Source of the DNA: Bacillota bacterium
Lineage (GTDB): Bacteria; Bacillota; Sulfobacillia; JACIYH01
Assembly (NCBI GenBank): GCA_040757085.1
Contig: JBFLXJ010000029.1
Location: 1 to 64,000, forward strand
Length of the DNA stretch: 64,000 bases
Direction: 5' to 3'
The translations under genes and the position numbers were made by a program. The notes below the pieces were generated by a model that ran no database searches, was not told the DNA's origin, and saw only the letters and a list, made by a program, of their open reading frames with translations. Position 1 is the stretch's first letter. Every line of letters begins with the position of its first letter. Positions 17,536 through 26,980 of the stretch are shown here, piece after piece.

Positions 17536-17593
17536 TTTGTTCCGATCATCGCCGGCTGCTCGCCCGGGGAATCATGTAATGGAGGTACACGAG

Positions 17594-18823
17594 GTGAAGC
17601 GTTTCTTGCCCGTGGTGCTGGCCTTCCTGGCCGCCATGCCCTGGATCGTGCTTCGGCTGATCGGGTACCACTACAGCCCTCCGGTGACGGCGGCCCTATC
17701 GGGGCTGGCAATCCTCGGTGCCGCCTTCCTTCTCTCCTGGGCAGCCGAGGTGGCCCAGCTGGAGATATCGGCCGCGCTTGCCGTGGCTATCCTGTCGCTG
17801 ATCGCTGTACTGCCGGAGTATTCGGTGGACATGTACTTCGCCTGGCAGGCGGGCAAGGATCCCACCTACGCCCAGTACGCCGCCGCCAATATGACCGGGG
17901 CCAACCGGTTGCTCATCGGGCTGGGCTGGAGCACCGTACTCCTTCTTTACTGGTGGAAGTCGAAAAAGCCGGTTCTCCACTTCGAAAGGAAGGACGCGGT
18001 GGAACTGGGCGCCCTCACGATCGCCACCGTGTACGCCTTCCTGCTTCCCATCAAGGGAACCCTCTCCCTCCTGGATAGCGTCATCCTGATTGCCATCTTC
18101 GTCATGTACATCCGGGCCACATCCCGACAGGGGGTGGAGGAACCGGAACTGATCGGCCCCGCCGAGGCGCTTGCCGCATTGCCCCGGGGGCCCAGGCGGG
18201 CCGTTACGGTGGCCATGTTCCTCTACGCGGCCTTCGCCATCTTGATGTCGGCGGAATGCTTTGCCGAAGGCCTGGTGGAGACGGGTACCATGCTGGGCAT
18301 CGACGAGTTCTTCCTAGTGCAGTGGCTGGCACCCCTGGCCTCGGAGGCCCCCGAGTTCATAGTGGCGGCCCTCTTCGCTCTGCAGGGGCGAGCTCACCTG
18401 GGTGTGCGCACCATGATTTCTTCCAAGGTCAACCAGTGGACCCTGCTCATCGGCATGCTGCCCCTGACCTACGCTGTTTCCACCAGCAGTATCCATCCTC
18501 TGGTTCTGGACCACCGCCAAGTGCAGGAAGTGCTTCTCACCGTGGCCCAGAGCGCCTTCGCCATCGCCGTCCTGGCCAACATGGACTACACGGTGGGGGC
18601 AGCCCTGGCCCTCATGGTGCTGTTTGTGAGCCAGCTTCTGACCCCGCACCTGCACTTCGTGTTCAGCATCATCTACCTGTTCCTCACTGCGGGGTTGCTG
18701 GTTGTGCAGAGGAAACGCGTGGCGGGCGTGGTCATGGCCGTGGGCAACATCCTCCGCCCGGGCGTCGTCCCTGCGGGGGAAGGGGAAACCGCATCCGGGG
18801 CTCCCGAACACGTCACTGAGTAG
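17594..18823 (+). CDS. CaCA-family cation (Na+/Ca2+-type) exchanger under Mn2+ riboswitch
   Basis: A 409-residue membrane protein with 10-11 hydrophobic segments and two inverted halves of the calcium:cation antiporter family. The alpha repeats are visible as LIAVLPEYSVDMYFAWQAGK with AAANMTGANRLLIGLGW (first) and LAPLASEAPEFIVAALFALQ with TMISSKVNQWTLLIGMLPL (second), including the acidic residues that bind cation. GTG 17594 is chosen because GGAGGT lies 7 bases upstream. The yybP-ykoY riboswitch upstream argues that it exports Mn2+ (possibly also Ca2+) when the metal is in excess. The family is mainly known for Ca2+, so the specificity here is inference. Confidence 0.87.
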   Translation: MKRFLPVVLAFLAAMPWIVLRLIGYHYSPPVTAALSGLAILGAAFLLSWAAEVAQLEISAALAVAILSLIAVLPEYSVDMYFAWQAGKDPTYAQYAAANMTGANRLLIGLGWSTVLLLYWWKSKKPVLHFERKDAVELGALTIATVYAFLLPIKGTLSLLDSVILIAIFVMYIRATSRQGVEEPELIGPAEALAALPRGPRRAVTVAMFLYAAFAILMSAECFAEGLVETGTMLGIDEFFLVQWLAPLASEAPEFIVAALFALQGRAHLGVRTMISSKVNQWTLLIGMLPLTYAVSTSSIHPLVLDHRQVQEVLLTVAQSAFAIAVLANMDYTVGAALALMVLFVSQLLTPHLHFVFSIIYLFLTAGLLVVQRKRVAGVVMAVGNILRPGVVPAGEGETASGAPEHVTE

Positions 18824-19026
18824 CGCGGTGCGATCGCGGGCTACCGGCTCGCGGATGACGAGTGACCCCCGGCCTTTCGCCGAGCCGCGTGTCGCTGTTC
18901 TGGCCGGCTACTGGCTACCGCTGCCGCCCTGCGCCGCGCTGGCTGGAATTCCCGCCGCGAATGGAGTAGAATTGGGGACGAGCCTGGCAGGTATTGCCGG
19001 GCCCGATTTCCTCCGGGGGCTATGGG

Positions 19027-20868
19027 ATGAGGGCCAGCCTGCGCGGCAGGATCATGGGCGGGTACGTGCTCATCACGGCCCTGGCACTGGTCGTGGGGAT
19101 GTGGTCGGCTTTCAACTACGTCCGCTTCTCGGGCCAGTTGAACGCCATGATGGTGCAGAACTACCGCAGTGTGGTGGCAGCCACCCATATGGTGGCGGCA
19201 CTGGAGAGACAGGACAGTGCGGCCCTCATGTTGCTGCTCGGCGACCCGGAGTCAGGGGCACTGTTCGAGCGGGCCCGGACGGATTTCCTGGGATGGCTGG
19301 CCCGGGCAGAAGATAACGTCACCCTGCCCGGAGAAGGGGAAGTGGTGGCCCGCATCCGGGCGCGCTACCTGGATTACTGCCGTGCCCTGGAGACCATCTG
19401 GGGAGACCGCGACCACGCCCTGCCGGCAGACACCGTGAGTGCGGCCTATCGAGGCCTGGTGTTGCCGCGGTTCGATGCCGCCCGCCAGGCCTGCTGGGAA
19501 CTCTTCGCCATGAACGACCAGGCCATGAGCAACGTGCAGGCCCGCATGACTGCGGCCAGCGCTCGGGCCGCCTGGTCCACCCTGCTGGTGGGGGTGATGG
19601 CTCTGGTGATGGCCGTGGTGCTGGGATTCACGGTGTCAGAGGTTATTGCCCGTCCCGTGCGGCGCCTAGCCGAATCCGCCCGCCGGGTGGGGGAGGGGCA
19701 CCTGGATGAAACCATAGAGGTGCGGGGCCGGGACGAGGTCGGGCTGCTGGCTGCTGAGTTCAATGCCATGGTGGAAAAACTACGGGAAGTGCGGGCCTCC
19801 AACGTGGCCCGCCTGGCGGCCAGCCGGCGCAAGCTGGAGGCGGTCATAGACGCCATCGGGGATGGTCTGGTGGTAACCGACACCGCCCTGCGCATCGAAT
19901 CAGCCAACCCCGTGGCCCAGGAAGTGTTCGGATGGAAGGGGGACGACCTGGCCGGTCGGCCTTTTTCGCACGTGGTGCATGATGCCCGGCTGGTGGAACT
20001 GGTGGAGCGCGAGGCGGCCCGGGCTTCCTCCCCTCCGGATGGCGAACCCAGCGAGCCGGTACTGGTTGAGCACGCTCGGGGCGGGAGACGCCGCTGCTAC
20101 CTGGCGGAGGCCACCGCTGTCCGGCTCGGCGAGGAGGTGCTCGGGGTGGTGCTCCTACTCCGGGACGTAACGGCCGTGGAAGAAGTGGAGCGGTCCCGGT
20201 CCCGGTTCATGTCGGCCATTTCTCACGAATTGCGTACTCCTCTGGCATCGCTGACCATGGGGATCGGCCTCCTGGCCGAGAGCAAGGTCTTGCGGGGATG
20301 CCCCAGGGAGGCGGAGCTGGTGGACATCCTGAAGGAGGACTCCCGGCGGCTCTCCCGCCTGGTGGACGAACTCTTCGAGTTGAGCAGGTTGCAGTCGGGG
20401 CAGTTGCCCCTTAGCTTTACCCGGGTGGAGGTGGCGGAGATGGTAGAGAGCGCCACCCTGCCTTTCGTGGCCCAGGCCGAGGCCCAGGGGGTGGAGTTGC
20501 GCCGGGAGGTCCCCGCCGGTTTGCCAGCGGTGCGTGCCGATCGAGAGAAGGTGACCTGGGTGATTTCCAACCTGGTGGCCAACGCCCTGCGCTACACACC
20601 GGCCGGGGGCCGGATCGCCGTATCCGCGGAGCCCCACGGGGCTATGGTCTACGTCAGCGTTGCCGACACCGGGATCGGCATCCCCAGGGAGAAGCAGGAG
20701 GCCATCTTCCAGCCTTATGTTCAGTTGGAGGACAGGGCCGGGGGAGGTGCGGGCCTGGGCCTGGCCATTTCGCGGGATATCGTGCGTGCCCACGGGGGCC
20801 GTCTCTTTGTGGAAAGCGAACCTGGCCGGGGCAGCAAGTTCACGTTCAGCCTCCCTGTGGAGCCTTGA
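19027..20868 (+). CDS. Membrane sensor histidine kinase (KinB/PhoR-like)
   Basis: A 613-residue sensor kinase. Order: TM1 (residues 10-30), a 150-residue extracytoplasmic helical sensor domain, TM2 (183-205), HAMP (205-255), PAS (270-385), HisKA with phospho-acceptor His400 (SRFMSAISHELRTPLASL) and HATPase with N-box NLVANALRYTPAGG, G1 DTGIGIP and G2 GGGAGLGLAI. The start ATG 19027 leaves a short N-tail before TM1. It is followed after 18 bp by the response regulator and, 0.8 kb on, by trkA/trkH genes, which suggests sensing of an osmotic, ionic or envelope signal (inference). No promoter was clear in the 200-bp gap before it, apart from a lone TAGAAT at 18967. Confidence 0.93.
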   Translation: MRASLRGRIMGGYVLITALALVVGMWSAFNYVRFSGQLNAMMVQNYRSVVAATHMVAALERQDSAALMLLLGDPESGALFERARTDFLGWLARAEDNVTLPGEGEVVARIRARYLDYCRALETIWGDRDHALPADTVSAAYRGLVLPRFDAARQACWELFAMNDQAMSNVQARMTAASARAAWSTLLVGVMALVMAVVLGFTVSEVIARPVRRLAESARRVGEGHLDETIEVRGRDEVGLLAAEFNAMVEKLREVRASNVARLAASRRKLEAVIDAIGDGLVVTDTALRIESANPVAQEVFGWKGDDLAGRPFSHVVHDARLVELVEREAARASSPPDGEPSEPVLVEHARGGRRRCYLAEATAVRLGEEVLGVVLLLRDVTAVEEVERSRSRFMSAISHELRTPLASLTMGIGLLAESKVLRGCPREAELVDILKEDSRRLSRLVDELFELSRLQSGQLPLSFTRVEVAEMVESATLPFVAQAEAQGVELRREVPAGLPAVRADREKVTWVISNLVANALRYTPAGGRIAVSAEPHGAMVYVSVADTGIGIPREKQEAIFQPYVQLEDRAGGGAGLGLAISRDIVRAHGGRLFVESEPGRGSKFTFSLPVEP

Positions 20869-20886
20869 ATGCAGGAGGTGGGACCG

Positions 20887-21549
20887 TTGGCCAGGATCCT
20901 GGTGGTGGATGACGAGAAGAACATAAGGGTGACCCTGCAACAGTGCCTGGCGGATGCCGGGCACGAGGTGGACCTGGCGGTGAGCGGGGAACACGCCCTG
21001 GAGAAGCTGGAGAAGGGCGAATACGATCTGGTGCTGCTGGACATCAAGCTTCCCGACATAGACGGGGTGGAGGTGCTGCGCCGCATCAAGCACCGCCGGC
21101 CGGAGCAGGCGGTGGTCATGATCACCGCTTACGGTACCATCGAGACGGCGGTGGAGACCATGAAGCTGGGGGCGCTGGACTACCTGCAGAAACCCTTCAC
21201 CCCCGAGGAAATCCGGAACGTGGTCGCCACGGTGCTGGCGAGGGAGCGGGTGACGGAAGAAGAAGCGGAGCAGTCGTTCCGGGCCGCAGTGGAGTACGCC
21301 AAGGCCTGCATTGCCCGTTCCCGCCCCGAGGACGCCATCCCTCACCTCAAGCGTGCGGTCTCGCTGAATCCCAACCATCCCGAGGCGTACAGTCTGCTGG
21401 GGCTGGTGGCGGAGCTGCGGGGGGACGTGCTGGGAGCCCTCAAGATGTACCGGGCGGCGCTGGCGGTGGACCCGGGATACCGTCCGGCCCTGTCCAACCT
21501 GGAGCGCGCCACCGGTTGGCGATATACGCCGCCTGCCCCGCAGCTCTGA
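20887..21549 (+). CDS. Response regulator with TPR output domain
   Basis: A 220-residue protein. TTG 20887 is the start because AGGAGGTGG (20873-20881) sits just upstream; the in-frame ATG 20869 lies before this site. The receiver domain has the acidic pair Asp8/Asp9, phospho-acceptor Asp52 (LVLLDIKLPDIDG) and Lys102 (YLQKPF). In place of a DNA-binding domain, residues 125-215 form two to three tetratricopeptide repeats (EDAIPHLKRAVSLNPNHPEA, DVLGALKMYRAALAVDPGYR). The output is therefore probably protein-protein contact. Its kinase is encoded directly upstream and potassium-transport genes follow. Confidence 0.9.
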   Translation: MARILVVDDEKNIRVTLQQCLADAGHEVDLAVSGEHALEKLEKGEYDLVLLDIKLPDIDGVEVLRRIKHRRPEQAVVMITAYGTIETAVETMKLGALDYLQKPFTPEEIRNVVATVLARERVTEEEAEQSFRAAVEYAKACIARSRPEDAIPHLKRAVSLNPNHPEAYSLLGLVAELRGDVLGALKMYRAALAVDPGYRPALSNLERATGWRYTPPAPQL

Positions 21550-21647
21550 TTTTCCGGCGGCGAGGGAGAAGATGCGGCTCGGCCGGTCAAGCGAAGAGCC
21601 CTGAGTTTGGCTGACGAGCGAAGGGCGTGGCGAGGGAAGGGGCGAGC

Positions 21648-22301
21648 ATGTACATCATAGTGGCAGGATGCGGGAGCCTGGGGGCGGAACTGGCACGCAC
21701 CCTGGCCGACGAGGGGCATGACGTGGTGGTGATCGACCGGGACCGGACCGCTTTCGAGCGGTTGGGTCCTGGTTTCGACGGGGTCACGGTATCGGGAACC
21801 GCCATCGACGCGGACGTTCTGCGACAGGCGGGGGCCGACCGGGCGGACGCCCTGGCGGCGGTGACGGGCAGCGACCAGGTCAACCTTATGGTGGGGCAGG
21901 TGGCTTCCCGGCTGTTTGGCCTGCGCCGGGTGGTGATACGGGTTTCCGATCCCCAACTGGAAGAGACATACCGTCGCCTGGGATTTCAGACCCTGCGCCC
22001 GGGGAAGTCCGCGGTGGCCCAGGTGCGGTGCCTGCTTGGCGCCGGGGCGCTCATGCACCTTCTGGCCCTTGGCACGGGTGACGTGGAACTGGTGCAGTTT
22101 GCAGTCCGTCCCTCGCTGGCCGGGGAGCCGCTGGAGCGACTGGTGATTCCGGGCAAATGCCACCCCGCGGGGGTAGTGCGACGGGGGAGGGTGCTCCTGC
22201 CGGGTCCCGATCTCCGCCTGGAGGAAGGAGACGGTGTCTTGGCGCTCATCCGCCTGGACGCCCGTGCCGCGGTCTTGGCCTGGATCCATGAAGAGCCATA
22301 G
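21648..22301 (+). CDS. trkA: TrkA-type RCK protein 1 (potassium channel gating)
   Basis: A 217-residue cytoplasmic protein with an RCK_N Rossmann domain (IIVAGCGSLGAELARTLADE, Gly7-x-Gly9-x-x-Gly12, and acidic VVVIDRD at the end of beta-2 for NAD(H) or adenine nucleotide binding) and an RCK_C domain near residues 140-215 (LAGEPLERLVIPGKCHPAGV). ATG 21648 follows GAAGGGGCGAGC. Such proteins gate TrkH/KtrB-type K+ channels in response to nucleotides. It stands 25 bp ahead of a second RCK gene; two single RCK proteins may form a hetero-oligomeric ring or replace a double-RCK TrkA. Confidence 0.9.
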   Translation: MYIIVAGCGSLGAELARTLADEGHDVVVIDRDRTAFERLGPGFDGVTVSGTAIDADVLRQAGADRADALAAVTGSDQVNLMVGQVASRLFGLRRVVIRVSDPQLEETYRRLGFQTLRPGKSAVAQVRCLLGAGALMHLLALGTGDVELVQFAVRPSLAGEPLERLVIPGKCHPAGVVRRGRVLLPGPDLRLEEGDGVLALIRLDARAAVLAWIHEEP

Positions 22302-22326
22302 AGGGATGCCCGGGGGAGGATCAGGC

Positions 22327-23139
22327 ATGCGAGTGGTGGTGGTAGGGGGAGGCAAGGTCGGGTTCTACCTGGCGCGCACACTCCAGGAGAAGCATCACCA
22401 GGTGAGCGTGGTGGAGAAGAATCCGCGACGGGCGGTCATGCTGGCCGAGCAGCTTCCCGTGCTGGTGATCGCCGGTGACGGGACCAACCCCGCTTACCTT
22501 GCCGACGCGGGGGCCGATCGGGCCCAGGTGCTGGCGGCCGTCACCGGGCTGGACGAGGTCAACCTGGTGGCATGCCAGGTGGCCCGGGAGGAGTTCGGGG
22601 TGCCGCGCACCATCGCCCGGGTGAACAACCCCAAGAACCAGCATGTGCTGCAACAACTGGGCGTGGACATAGCAGTATCGAGCACGTCCATCATCGCCCG
22701 CTTCATCGAGCGGGAGACCAGCATGGGTGCCCTGCGGGAACTGCTCACCTTTCACCGGGGCGAGATGGCCCTCGTGGAAGCACAGCTGGACGAAGGTGCG
22801 CCAGCTGCCGGGCGGACAGTCAGGGAGCTGGCCGCTCACCTGCCCGCGGATTCGGTCCTGGTAGCGGTGGTGCGGGGCGAGCACGTGGTATTCCCGCGGG
22901 GAGATACCGTTCTGCTTCCCCACGACGGGGTGCTGGCCCTCACCACCACGGAGAGGGAAGAGGCCCTCATGCGCGCCCTGGTGGGCAGGGGGGCAAAGGC
23001 TGCCAGCACTCGCCGCCCGGGTGGCGGCACGACCCGGGCCGATGGGCCCGCGGCCGGTGGTGGCGCCGCGCTCGACGGGCCCGCACCGGGCGGTGGTAGC
23101 TCCCGGCCCCGGCCGGTTGCGCCCGGGTGGAGAGGGTGA
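22327..23139 (+). CDS. trkA: TrkA-type RCK protein 2 with Gly/Pro-rich tail
   Basis: A 270-residue RCK protein: Rossmann motif VVVVGGGKVGFYLARTLQEK, acidic VVEKN, and RCK_C domain about residues 140-220 (GRTVRELAAHLPADSVLVAV). After residue 230 there is a 40-residue low-complexity tail of Gly, Pro, Ala and Arg (repeated GGG and DGPA elements) not usual in the family. ATG 22327 follows GGGGGAGGATCAGG. It lies between the first trkA and a 48-residue membrane peptide plus trkH. It would work as the second regulatory subunit of the K+ uptake system. Confidence 0.9.
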   Translation: MRVVVVGGGKVGFYLARTLQEKHHQVSVVEKNPRRAVMLAEQLPVLVIAGDGTNPAYLADAGADRAQVLAAVTGLDEVNLVACQVAREEFGVPRTIARVNNPKNQHVLQQLGVDIAVSSTSIIARFIERETSMGALRELLTFHRGEMALVEAQLDEGAPAAGRTVRELAAHLPADSVLVAVVRGEHVVFPRGDTVLLPHDGVLALTTTEREEALMRALVGRGAKAASTRRPGGGTTRADGPAAGGGAALDGPAPGGGSSRPRPVAPGWRG

Positions 23140-23145
23140 GCGAAC

Positions 23146-23292
23146 GTGAGCCTGGCAGGGCGTGCGGCTGAGCGATTGGTGCCCAAGCGCCCCCTCTGGA
23201 ATGGCGTGGCGGGCATCCTTGTGGAAGTGGGCGCGGTTGCCCTGTATCTTTTGGTGCTCTTCGTCCTTTGTGCGGTGGTGACCCGGATGTGA
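23146..23292 (+). CDS. 48-residue single-helix membrane peptide between trkA and trkH
   Basis: An unassigned small gene. GTG 23146, preceded by GAGAGGGTGAGCG, opens a 48-codon frame that ends in TGA 23290-23292, overlapping the GTG start of trkH by 4 bp. The product has a basic N-terminus (residues 1-17, GRAAERLVPKRP) and one hydrophobic helix around residues 20-45 (GAVALYLLVLFVLCAVV), ending in TRM. The GTGA coupling at both ends, the tight fit between two trk genes and a peptide that makes sense as a membrane protein support expression. By position it recalls KdpF-type helper peptides, but I know no named family for it. A Trk channel assembly or gating role is inference. Confidence 0.65.
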   Translation: MSLAGRAAERLVPKRPLWNGVAGILVEVGAVALYLLVLFVLCAVVTRM

Positions 23293-24782
23293 GCCGGCAA
23301 GACCTGGCGACCGTGGGGCTCCAGACCGGTCGGGTGCTGTGGGGTGTGGCGGCCCTGATGGTCATCCCCATGCTGGTGGCGGTGGCCTCCCGCGAATGGG
23401 CGGTGGTGGCCGACTTTCTCAGCGGGGCCGGGGTGGCCCTGGTGGGGGGTTCGGCCCTGGTCATCTTCTGCCGGCGCACTCCCCGGAGGGTAACCTGGAC
23501 CCAGGGGATGGTCACCGTGGCCGTTTCTTGGTTGGTGGCCATGGTGATATGCGCCATCCCCAGTTGGTTGAGCGGTCACTACGGTTCCTTCGGCGATGCC
23601 TGCTTCGACGTCATGAGCGGGTTCACCACCACCGGCCTCGTTCTGATTCAGGACCTCGACCATGTCTCCGACGGCCTCAACACCTGGCGGCATCTGCTGT
23701 CGTACCTGGGAGGCCAGGGAATGATTGTCCTGGCCCTCACTTTCCTGGCGCGGGGGCTGCCGGGCGGATACAAGCTCTACGTGGGGGAGGGCAAGGACGA
23801 GCGACTGCTGCCCAGCGTCGTCCACACTGCCCGCGCCATCTGGGGGATCAGCCTGGTGTACCTGGCATTGGGTACGCTGGTGCTGAGCATGATCGCCTGG
23901 CGCGAGGGCATGGCCCCTTACCGGGCCTTCCTGCACGGCATGTGGGTGTTCATGGCTGCCTGGAGCACGGGTGGTTTTGCTCCTTACAGCCAGAGCATCC
24001 TTTTTTACCACAGCGCCCCCTTCGAAGTGGCCACCATGGTGTTCTTCGTCCTGGGCTCATTGAACTTCGGCCTTCACCATGCGGTGTGGACGGGAAACCG
24101 GCGCGAGGTGCTGCGCAACCTGGAAACCCAGGCCTTTGCCGCCACCTCCACCGCGCTGTCCCTGATGGTGCTGGGGGTGCTGGCCGCCCGGGGCGTGTAC
24201 ACTTCTGCCGTGGATCTGTTCCGTAAGGCGGTATATCAGGTCCTCTCCGCCCACACAACCACGGGATTCATGACCGTGTATCCCGCCCAGATCCCGGGGC
24301 AGTGGGGTGACCTGGCCCTGCTGGGACTGACTCTGGCCATGGTACTGGGCGGGTCCGCCAGCTCCACCGCCGGTGGGTTCAAGGGCATCCGGGTGGGGCT
24401 GGCGGTCAAGACCCTCTCCCATGAGGTGCGCCGGCTGCTGGTGCCGGAATCTGCCCTGGTGGTCACCAGGTTTCACTTTTTCCGGGATTTCACCCTGGAG
24501 GGTCATCACGTGCGGGGGGCACTGTTCATCATGGGTCTGTACAGTCTGACGTTCGCGGTGGCAGCCACCGCTACCGTGGCGGCTGGATATCCCCTCGACC
24601 GTTCCCTTTTCGAGGCGGCGTCCGCCACCGGGAACGTGGGTCTCACGGTGGGCATCACTTCTCCCACCATGCCCTGGTTTCTCAAGGCGCTGTATGTGGT
24701 GGTGATGTGGGCGGGGCGGCTCGAGTTCATGGCGGTCCTGGTACTCCTGGGATACGCGGTCTACCGGCGGAGGCTACCTTGA
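23289..24782 (+). CDS. trkH: TrkH/KtrB-type potassium uptake channel subunit
   Basis: A 497-residue membrane protein of the TrkH/HKT superfamily. The four pore-loop filters are visible: SGFTTTGLVL, TGGFAPYS, AHTTTGFMTV and ATGNVGLTVG, each with the Gly of the K+ filter. Ten or more membrane helices surround them; the basic residue expected in the last pore-lining helices is consistent with the family. The start GTG 23289 overlaps the stop of the 48-residue peptide. Together with the two RCK proteins it forms a K+ uptake system. The stop overlaps the next start (TGATG). Confidence 0.94.
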   Translation: MSRQDLATVGLQTGRVLWGVAALMVIPMLVAVASREWAVVADFLSGAGVALVGGSALVIFCRRTPRRVTWTQGMVTVAVSWLVAMVICAIPSWLSGHYGSFGDACFDVMSGFTTTGLVLIQDLDHVSDGLNTWRHLLSYLGGQGMIVLALTFLARGLPGGYKLYVGEGKDERLLPSVVHTARAIWGISLVYLALGTLVLSMIAWREGMAPYRAFLHGMWVFMAAWSTGGFAPYSQSILFYHSAPFEVATMVFFVLGSLNFGLHHAVWTGNRREVLRNLETQAFAATSTALSLMVLGVLAARGVYTSAVDLFRKAVYQVLSAHTTTGFMTVYPAQIPGQWGDLALLGLTLAMVLGGSASSTAGGFKGIRVGLAVKTLSHEVRRLLVPESALVVTRFHFFRDFTLEGHHVRGALFIMGLYSLTFAVAATATVAAGYPLDRSLFEAASATGNVGLTVGITSPTMPWFLKALYVVVMWAGRLEFMAVLVLLGYAVYRRRLP

Positions 24783-25333
24783 TGATCGGGCGCAGGCTGG
24801 GGACGCGGATACTGCTGACTGTCGGCCTGCTATGCTGGCTTGTGGGGGCTGTATTACCGGCGACAGGGGCGGCCGGCGCCGGGCCCGCGGGGGGAGGGTC
24901 CTTTCCTGGCGAGGATACCGTCCTTACTCCCACCGGCCTTACTTCGGACCCCGGCAGGTACCACGGAAAGCCGGTGACGCTGAAGGGGGAAGTGATCGGG
25001 AGCGTCATGCGCCGGGGCGACCACGTCTGGCTGAACGTGGGGGACGGCGTGTCAGCGGTGGGGGTATGGGCGCCCGCGCAGCTTGGGGAAGCGATTCGGT
25101 TCACGGGCGGCTATGCTTCCCGGGGGGACACGGTGGTGGTGACGGGACTGTTTTCTGCCGCCTGCCCCCTGCACGGTGGCGATTCCGACCTGCATGCCTT
25201 GGCGTGGTGGGTGGTGGAAAGGGGATATCGCAAGGAGTACCCCCTCCCGACCTGGAGATGGGGGCTGGCTCTCTCCCTGGCGGCGGGCGGCGCGCTCCTC
25301 ACGTTGGTGGCCTGGCGGGCCTCCCGCATCTGA
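24782..25333 (+). CDS. Secreted/membrane OB-fold protein in the trk operon
   Basis: A 183-residue protein starting at ATG 24782 (one base shared with the trkH stop). It has an N-terminal hydrophobic signal segment (ILLTVGLLCWLVGAVLP), an OB-fold-like domain (residues 45-135: LKGEVIGSVMRRGDHVWLNV, GVSAVGVWAP, VVVTGLFSAACPLHGGDSD) and one C-terminal helix (WGLALSLAAGGALLTLVAW). So the OB domain lies outside the membrane, tethered at the C-terminus. OB folds of this type can bind small ligands or nucleic acid. Its position directly after trkH suggests a link with K+ transport or with the sensor kinase upstream, but no function is known. Confidence 0.75.
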   Translation: MIGRRLGTRILLTVGLLCWLVGAVLPATGAAGAGPAGGGSFPGEDTVLTPTGLTSDPGRYHGKPVTLKGEVIGSVMRRGDHVWLNVGDGVSAVGVWAPAQLGEAIRFTGGYASRGDTVVVTGLFSAACPLHGGDSDLHALAWWVVERGYRKEYPLPTWRWGLALSLAAGGALLTLVAWRASRI

Positions 25334-25337
25334 CCGG

Positions 25338-25760
25338 CTATTCGGGGATGGCCCGGTGGGCGAGTCCCACGGCCACGTCGTCCAGGTGAAGGAGGCCCAC
25401 CCCGGCGAATACGGCCACCGCCAGGTGCTCGCCCCCCTTGGCCACCGCGATCTTGCCCCCCACGTTAAGCCCCATGGCCCGGGTGCCCATCTGCACCATG
25501 GCCTCCCGGGTGGCACCGGCCACTGCTCCCAGGTGCAGGTGGGTGTCACGGATGACGCCCTCTCGCTTGGCGGCCACCAGTGCCCTCTCTACCGCTTTGG
25601 GGATGGTGGAGTAGAATTCTCCCCCGAAGTCCACCGCCACCGTTCGTATGCCGTGTTCGCTTAGGGTGCGCTTCAGTTCTGCCTCTTCTTCACGGGAGAT
25701 GGACAGGGCCATGCGTATGGCAGCCCGGGCCACGGTCAGGTTGTCCGGTCTTGTCGACAC
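25338..25760 (-). CDS. hutP: HutP-family RNA-binding regulator
   Basis: A 140-residue protein resembling HutP, the Mg2+/histidine-dependent antiterminator of the hut operon. The C-terminal two thirds (EGVIRDTHLHLGAVAGATRE, AMGLNVGGKIAVAKGG, LAVAVFAGVGLLHLDDVAVG) match the HutP core, with the metal/histidine-binding His pair in THLHLGA and a glycine-rich end. GTG 25760 follows GGGAGGTGCTAAT. It overlaps the end of the MFS transporter gene by 25 bp. The only hut gene in the window, hutU, is 19 kb away on the other strand, so this HutP may control something else, possibly amino-acid uptake. Sequence match is moderate but spans the whole core. Confidence 0.72.
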   Translation of the reverse strand: MSTRPDNLTVARAAIRMALSISREEEAELKRTLSEHGIRTVAVDFGGEFYSTIPKAVERALVAAKREGVIRDTHLHLGAVAGATREAMVQMGTRAMGLNVGGKIAVAKGGEHLAVAVFAGVGLLHLDDVAVGLAHRAIPE

Positions 25761-26980
25761 ATTAGCACCTCCCGGCTGATCTGCACGGCGGAAAGCCCGG
25801 CACTGTACCACAGGGAAGCCAATCCCAGCAGGGCACCCCCCAGGAAGGTGGCACCCGGACCCCAGGCCGCCCACAGGAGGCCTCCGGCAAAGGGAACCAG
25901 TACCCCGGCGATGTGGTTGACGGTACCACCCGCCGCCAGGGTGGACGCCAGGTCTTCGGGTGGGGCGATCTTGGCCAGGTGGCTGGAGATCGCTATCTCG
26001 AATCCGAACATGGCGCTGTCCAGGACGTAAACGCAATAGAGGAGCCGGGGGTAAGGGAGGAAGCCGTAGGCCAGGAAGAGTGGGATGATGACGGCATAGT
26101 TGAGCATGAGGCTGCGTTGCTCACCCCAGCGGTCTATGAGGCGTCCCAGTAGGGGCCGGGTGAGGATGGCCACCACGTTGGAGATGGCCATGAGCACCAT
26201 CATCACGGTGAGGGGGGTGTGGTACAGCTTTACCAGGGCAAACGCGGCAAAAGTCATGTACATGTGGCGCCGGGACCCTGCCAGGAAGGTGAGGACGTAG
26301 TAGGAGATGTAGGCCCGGCGGAACAGCAGAGGGCGACGGAGTCGACCCCCACCGTCGCCCCCCTGGAAGTAGAGCGCGAGGGCCCCGGCGCAGGCTGCGC
26401 CGGCACCCAGCGCGAAGAAGGCGCTGTAATTGTAAAAGCCCAGCCCCCGGGTGAGGAACAGCACCACTCCCATGGCAAGCAAAGAGGCAGCGGCGGTGAC
26501 GGAGTTCACCTGACCCAGGCGAGTGGCCCTTTCCTGCGGTGAGGCGATGCGCAGCACCATGGCGGACTGCAGGGGGTAAAATAGGTGGAATCCCACCGAT
26601 ACCACCAGGGTAGCCACGACCAGGTGCCAGAAGGTGCTGGTCAGGGCGTACAGGCCCAGGCCCAGGGCGGTGACGAGCAGGGTGAGTGCGGTGAAGGTGG
26701 ACTGGCGGAAAAACACTGCGGCCGCCCCCAGCACCACCGTGAGCAATCCCGGTATTTCGCGGATGCTCTCCACCACTCCCAACTGGTCCGCCCCGATGCC
26801 CAGCACCTGCGCCACGAAGTTGGGATATACCCCCCGCTGCACCCCCAGCGCGAACTCCAGGGCCAGGGTGGCCAGGGCCACGTTGCGGAATTCTTTGCTC
26901 ACCTGAGCCTTTGCGGGAGAGGGGCCCTCAGGGCGGGCGATGGGTGAGGGCGACTTCAGGAAAGCCGTGAAGTAACGCAT
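25736..26980 (-). CDS. MFS transporter
   Basis: A 414-residue permease with about 12 hydrophobic helices and the loop pattern GRLIDRWGEQRSL after helix 8, a variant of the G-x-x-x-D-R-x-G-R/K motif of the major facilitator superfamily. The first half contains LGVVESIREIPGLLTVVLGA. The substrate cannot be told. The gene overlaps the HutP-like gene at its end, so the two are likely co-transcribed; an amino-acid or related nitrogen source is one possibility. Confidence 0.88.
   Translation of the reverse strand: MRYFTAFLKSPSPIARPEGPSPAKAQVSKEFRNVALATLALEFALGVQRGVYPNFVAQVLGIGADQLGVVESIREIPGLLTVVLGAAAVFFRQSTFTALTLLVTALGLGLYALTSTFWHLVVATLVVSVGFHLFYPLQSAMVLRIASPQERATRLGQVNSVTAAASLLAMGVVLFLTRGLGFYNYSAFFALGAGAACAGALALYFQGGDGGGRLRRPLLFRRAYISYYVLTFLAGSRRHMYMTFAAFALVKLYHTPLTVMMVLMAISNVVAILTRPLLGRLIDRWGEQRSLMLNYAVIIPLFLAYGFLPYPRLLYCVYVLDSAMFGFEIAISSHLAKIAPPEDLASTLAAGGTVNHIAGVLVPFAGGLLWAAWGPGATFLGGALLGLASLWYSAGLSAVQISREVLMCRQDRTT

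Follow-up and report, generated by a model that had tools for sequence, protein, structure and literature searches.

A membrane protein of 48 residues from the trkA-trkH junction is a probable accessory subunit dedicated to one clade of TrkH channels

Between trkA and trkH, the DNA that we analysed (a window of 64,000 nucleotides) contains a gene of 48 codons, which is shorter than the usual gene-calling length. The gene is under purifying selection, its product carries a conserved G-x-x-x-E motif, and it is linked to one particular clade of TrkH. We think it probable that this is a real gene whose product is bitopic and serves as a dedicated accessory subunit of that clade, and that it is translated in coupling with trkH as part of a five-gene cassette (Table 1). 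TrkH/TrkA is one of the main K+ uptake systems of bacteria. It serves as a model of ligand gating and is regarded as having two components. An initial annotation of this DNA had proposed that the small frame encodes the missing subunit of TrkH channels in this lineage, comparable with KdpF. As a whole, that interpretation is partly supported.

Table 1. Features in and around the trk cassette of the window.
Feature	Position	Strand	Description
Exchanger-like gene	17537..18823	+	5' of the kinase gene; putative sodium/calcium exchanger-like membrane protein
Kinase and response regulator genes	18994..21549	+	directly 5' of the trk cassette; sensor histidine kinase (HAMP-PAS-HisKA-HATPase) and response regulator
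trkA-1	21648..22301	+	one RCK unit (TrkA_N + TrkA_C)
trkA-2	22327..23139	+	one RCK unit (TrkA_N + TrkA_C); Gly/Pro-rich C-terminal tail
trkA-2 tail	22980..23136	+	Gly/Pro-rich, low-complexity, about 45 residues, outside the TrkA_C match
Shine-Dalgarno-like stretch	23129..23136	+	GGAGAGGG, at the end of trkA-2; from sequence and SD scoring
Small membrane protein gene	23146..23292	+	48 aa; basic N-terminal segment; G23 and E27 of G-x-x-x-E; one TM helix, residues 17-47
GTGA overlap	23289..23292	+	small-gene stop TGA (23290-23292) over trkH GTG start (23289)
trkH	23289..24782	+	497 aa; Pfam TrkH PF02386, 1.1e-39; clade with small gene
OB-like gene	24782..25333	+	183 aa; N-terminal signal/TM, OB-like domain, C-terminal TM

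The four closest relatives of this TrkH within the same class (71, 58, 56, and 51% identity) each have an equally placed small frame with G-x-x-x-E and a hydrophobic stretch; these four were inspected by eye before the motif was defined. A scan of genome contigs identified two MAGs, one deltaproteobacterial and one from Omnitrophota, and each has the small frame. When whole genomes were searched with a TrkH profile (A1), the hits fell into two populations, one above about 520 bits and one below about 325 bits. The small frame is present, in the same place, in all 57 of the loci that we inspected from the high-scoring group (the clade) and absent from all 39 from the low-scoring group, so the initial annotation was right to take it for a real gene. 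The clade loci were drawn from the window's own class and phylum, the deltaproteobacterial MAG, and Omnitrophota, and 55 of them were scored by script and two (L039 and L040) by eye. From trkA to trkH, the clade has a gap of 109-274 nt. Of the 27 low-group loci with an upstream TrkA, 26 have a gap of no more than 67 nt. In a tree of TrkH, from which misread and long-branch rows had been taken out beforehand, a branch with an SH-aLRT of 100 separates the clade from the remaining rows (57 versus 40 rows).

In further whole-genome searches, which were independent of trkH, the query was a profile (A2) built for the small protein. Within its own class there were matches in 9 of 154 genomes, and within its own phylum, at E < 1e-5, in 19 of 399. 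In both cases these are exactly the genomes that contain the TrkH clade, and each match adjoins trkH. Four further genomes from the phylum had weaker matches, which are located within long frames or extend over stop codons. Among the Omnitrophota, 54 of the 60 genomes with the TrkH clade had matches, and one false match fell within a frame of 774 aa. In G996, one of the genomes with a match, the small gene and trkH are on separate contigs. No credible match to the small protein was found away from trkH in any of these searches. The recovery of profile members is expected, because A2 contains sequences from those genomes. The informative results are the loci outside the profile and the lack of credible matches elsewhere.

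Upon inspection of the six Omnitrophota clade genomes without a match to A2, three do carry the gene (G-x-x-x-E in two of them and A-x-x-x-E in the third, L147), a fourth has N-masked sequence there, and the remaining two lack it. The last two, G932 and G950 (L145 and L146), are sister genomes in which trkA leads directly into trkH. The small gene is also missing beside the second trkH copy of G884 (L150) and beside a broken trkH copy in G941. Among these additional loci, the small gene has been lost at least three times. Since trkH was kept in G932, in G950, and in the second copy of G884, the small gene is not strictly indispensable. These three loci are natural experiments on the role of the small protein; the TrkH residues that change where the small gene is gone gave no hint of a contact site.

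The TrkH clade is altogether absent from two congeners of the window's genome. Because the small gene and its TrkH occur together in at least three phyla and are absent from these two congeners, the pair follows the type of TrkH and not the species lineage, and its distribution would fit horizontal spread or repeated loss. So the pair does occur in the lineage that the initial annotation had in mind, but it is not restricted to it. Similarly, the idea of a missing subunit holds for one clade but not for TrkH channels in general, as most of the sampled TrkH loci have no small gene.

The initial annotation suggested looking for amino-acid conservation at the trkA-trkH junctions of relatives, and the frame is conserved there. 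The product of the window's gene, which begins with GTG, is MSLAGRAAERLVPKRPLWNGVAGILVEVGAVALYLLVLFVLCAVVTRM. The G and the E of the motif are invariant in 56 of 56 distinct small-protein sequences, although this invariance was partly selected for, because the script that screened the first loci looked for the motif; the A-x-x-x-E variant is among the loci that were fetched later. Outside of the motif the protein is variable, with a mean column identity of 21%. In close pairs with enough divergence, the dN/dS of the small gene is 0.04-0.23, and a pooled pN/pS of 0.28 across ten independent pairs indicates purifying selection. Changes at the three codon positions number 51, 32, and 97, which is an excess at the third position. 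Together with its co-occurrence with one TrkH clade, the conservation and selection of the small protein strongly support the claim that it is dedicated to TrkH. The initial annotation had also described a basic tail plus one helix. AlphaFold2 does give a single, confident helix at residues 17-47 (pLDDT of about 88-97), while the tail is indeed basic but is at the N-terminus, where the net charge is above zero in 96% of clade members.

How might such a protein work? Because its N-terminus is positive, we infer that this end most likely lies in the cytoplasm and that the single helix spans the membrane. The invariant Gly would then serve for helix packing, and the Glu four residues on would lie in the half of the helix nearer the cytoplasm. 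The Gly/Glu motif suggests a specific packing of helices with a buried polar contact, and these two residues most likely dock the small protein on TrkH. If it is expressed, as we expect, the docked protein might make the TrkH channel more stable or adjust how TrkA gates it, in the way that KdpF would act on KdpA, and K+ uptake would be affected accordingly.

Another idea is that the small protein is a regulatory membrane peptide and that its main partner is not TrkH. That partner might be a sensor, TrkA, or the OB-like protein encoded downstream; or the peptide might control the turnover of TrkH. Small membrane peptides do regulate sensor kinases or transporters. The basic N-terminus would be on the presumed TrkA side, beyond its linkage to trkH, the gene is also strictly linked to trkA and to the OB-like gene, and some copies of trkH do without it. 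Also, mycobacterial KdpF binds proteins other than KdpA, including KdpD, in two-hybrid tests (PMC3618439). On the other hand, the position of the gene, its coupling with trkH, and a distribution that tracks the TrkH clade all point to TrkH. In addition, a divergent locus in G831 (L143/L174) has the small gene, but there is no OB-like gene behind its trkH and a purN-like formyltransferase frame is found there instead. Overall, we consider a main partner other than TrkH to be unlikely.

The coupling of the small gene to trkH suggests that the two proteins are produced in matched amounts. The GTG of the small gene is seven bases past the stop of trkA-2 (23137-23139), with a GAGG-type Shine-Dalgarno sequence about 9 nt upstream. 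The initial annotation correctly noted this ribosome binding site and the coupling to trkH by GTGA at the 3' end. NTGA overlaps with trkH occur in 33 of the 57 clade loci. These overlaps, immediately before trkH, might also mean that the frame is only a leader, from which ribosomes re-initiate at trkH while the peptide itself is idle. We find this improbable: selection acts at the amino-acid level, the G-x-x-x-E motif in the transmembrane helix is nearly invariant, the other 24 loci have no overlap, and other trkH genes directly follow trkA without any small frame. No RNA element from Rfam was found at the junction (positions 20000-26000 were scanned), and a comparison with plasmid records gave no match.

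The location of the small gene, exactly between trkA and trkH, could also suggest that gene fission split it off from TrkH (as the D0 helix, for example) or from TrkA. But when this TrkH was compared as a profile to the solved TrkH 3pjz (4.7e-54), positions 9-492 aligned to residues 2-479, which is the full length, and TrkH from the clade does not differ much in length from the TrkH of loci that lack the small gene. Furthermore, in the other branches, trkA and trkH nearly abut and there is no extra transmembrane segment. So fission is very improbable, and we reject a split piece of TrkH, as TrkH is complete. Because TrkH from the clade is complete over its full length, the helix is an addition to it. 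This TrkH scores 211.8 bits against NCBIfam TIGR00933, which is below the cut-off of 331, and there is a weak match to KtrB chains. A structure model of TrkH, built from three sequences only, had a mean pLDDT of 47.5, which is too low for the model to be usable. Finally, short frames with GTG starts are to be suspected in a GC-rich genome, which is rich in spurious ORFs, but the conservation, the selection, and the co-occurrence with the TrkH clade rule out a chance ORF at the level of sequence, and we see next to no prospect that the frame lacks a product.

The small protein has no match above the curated cut-offs of Pfam and NCBIfam, just scattered sub-threshold matches, and it matches no family in PDB, which agrees with its having been called undescribed. 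None of 42 members, nor the profile, matched the KdpF models of Pfam and NCBIfam or the KdpF chains in PDB, so we reject the idea that the small protein is a homologue of KdpF. Nor is its gene beside kdpA in a kdp operon, as its neighbors are trkA and trkH. The comparison with KdpF that was originally made does hold up as a functional analogy. Both are proteins of about 30-50 amino acids with one transmembrane helix, encoded directly beside (and, in this case, presumably co-translated with) a K+ channel-like subunit, and their partners, KdpA and TrkH, belong to the same superfamily of K+ transporters. The differences are that the helix of the small protein has the Glu of G-x-x-x-E, that its presumed partner is TrkH/TrkA, and that, within the operon, its gene is flanked by trkA and trkH. 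KdpF has been proposed to stabilise the Kdp complex and is non-essential (PMC3618439, PMC6255902). By analogy alone, KdpF would be the nearest functional parallel.

The initial annotation missed a second clade-specific partner gene, which lies downstream of trkH. In the first set of loci, this OB-like gene is found 3' of trkH wherever a clade locus extends that far downstream (56 of 56), as compared to 0 of 30 others. A profile of the OB-like gene matched the same 9 of 154 genomes in the class; two of these genomes also gave short additional matches, two in all. The core of the protein is GEVIGDxMxRGxxAWVN...HGGDLDIHA, and its conserved RACxxHGGDLDIHA-type motif is a possible metal site. In Pfam, the OB-like protein has weak matches to OB-fold models only, none of them above the cut-off; there was no match in PDB or to the KdpC model of Pfam. 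The OB-like gene was kept where the small gene was lost (G932, G950, and the second copy of G884). As the OB-like gene is just as clade-specific, the unit is a cassette of five genes: trkA, trkA, the small gene, trkH, and the OB-like gene. KdpC is a small membrane-anchored protein whose main domain is outside the cytoplasm. The OB-like protein is similar in being small and membrane-anchored, in having an extracytoplasmic main domain, and in being encoded beside a channel subunit, but this is a similarity of layout only. We are evenly divided as to whether the clade, across several phyla, is a multi-subunit K+ channel, with a split TrkA ring, TrkH, a helix subunit with G-x-x-x-E, and an extracytoplasmic OB subunit with the HGGDLDIHA-type motif, so that a layout with F-like and C-like parts, as in Kdp, would have evolved on TrkH without a pump.

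The Trk system, with its TrkH channel and its ring of TrkA RCK domains, has been solved for Vibrio (3pjz, 4j9u, and 6v4j). As generally described, and also in the introduction of one paper (PMC12059179), Trk systems consist of TrkH and TrkA alone. The clade resembles them in that its TrkH is a full-length homologue with two RCK genes directly upstream. It differs in that TrkA is encoded as two separate RCK genes and in that a small transmembrane protein and an OB-like membrane-anchored protein are added. In the open-licence literature, no paper that we found describes TrkH with a small partner or an OB-like one. The KtrAB system belongs to the same superfamily and is also gated by RCK domains. 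In Vibrio, the basic, disordered N-terminal tail of KtrB takes part in activation (PMC12059179), and the basic tail of the small protein may be comparable, except that the tail of KtrB is part of the channel chain while in the clade it is on a separate helix. If our proposal is correct, then two extra conserved membrane partners would change the parts list of TrkH/TrkA and could explain differences in gating. The clade would also be a clean test of why channels of the SKT superfamily gain single-helix partners, which has been asked for KdpF as well.

TrkH from the clade has some residues of its own near the pore segments: WRH...GGQG versus WRS...GGMG, and SGHTTTG versus a hydrophobic residue before TTTG. 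The outgroup set for this list included a few misread frames, and these residues are not tied to the helix. Searched for TrkH-type proteins and for KdpA, the window's genome has just one TrkH-type match and no KdpA, so the cassette may be its main route of K+ uptake. The response regulator upstream of the cassette has a C-terminal TPR region in place of a DNA-binding domain, and the exchanger-like protein that precedes the kinase has a weak match to TIGR00367 (9e-6).
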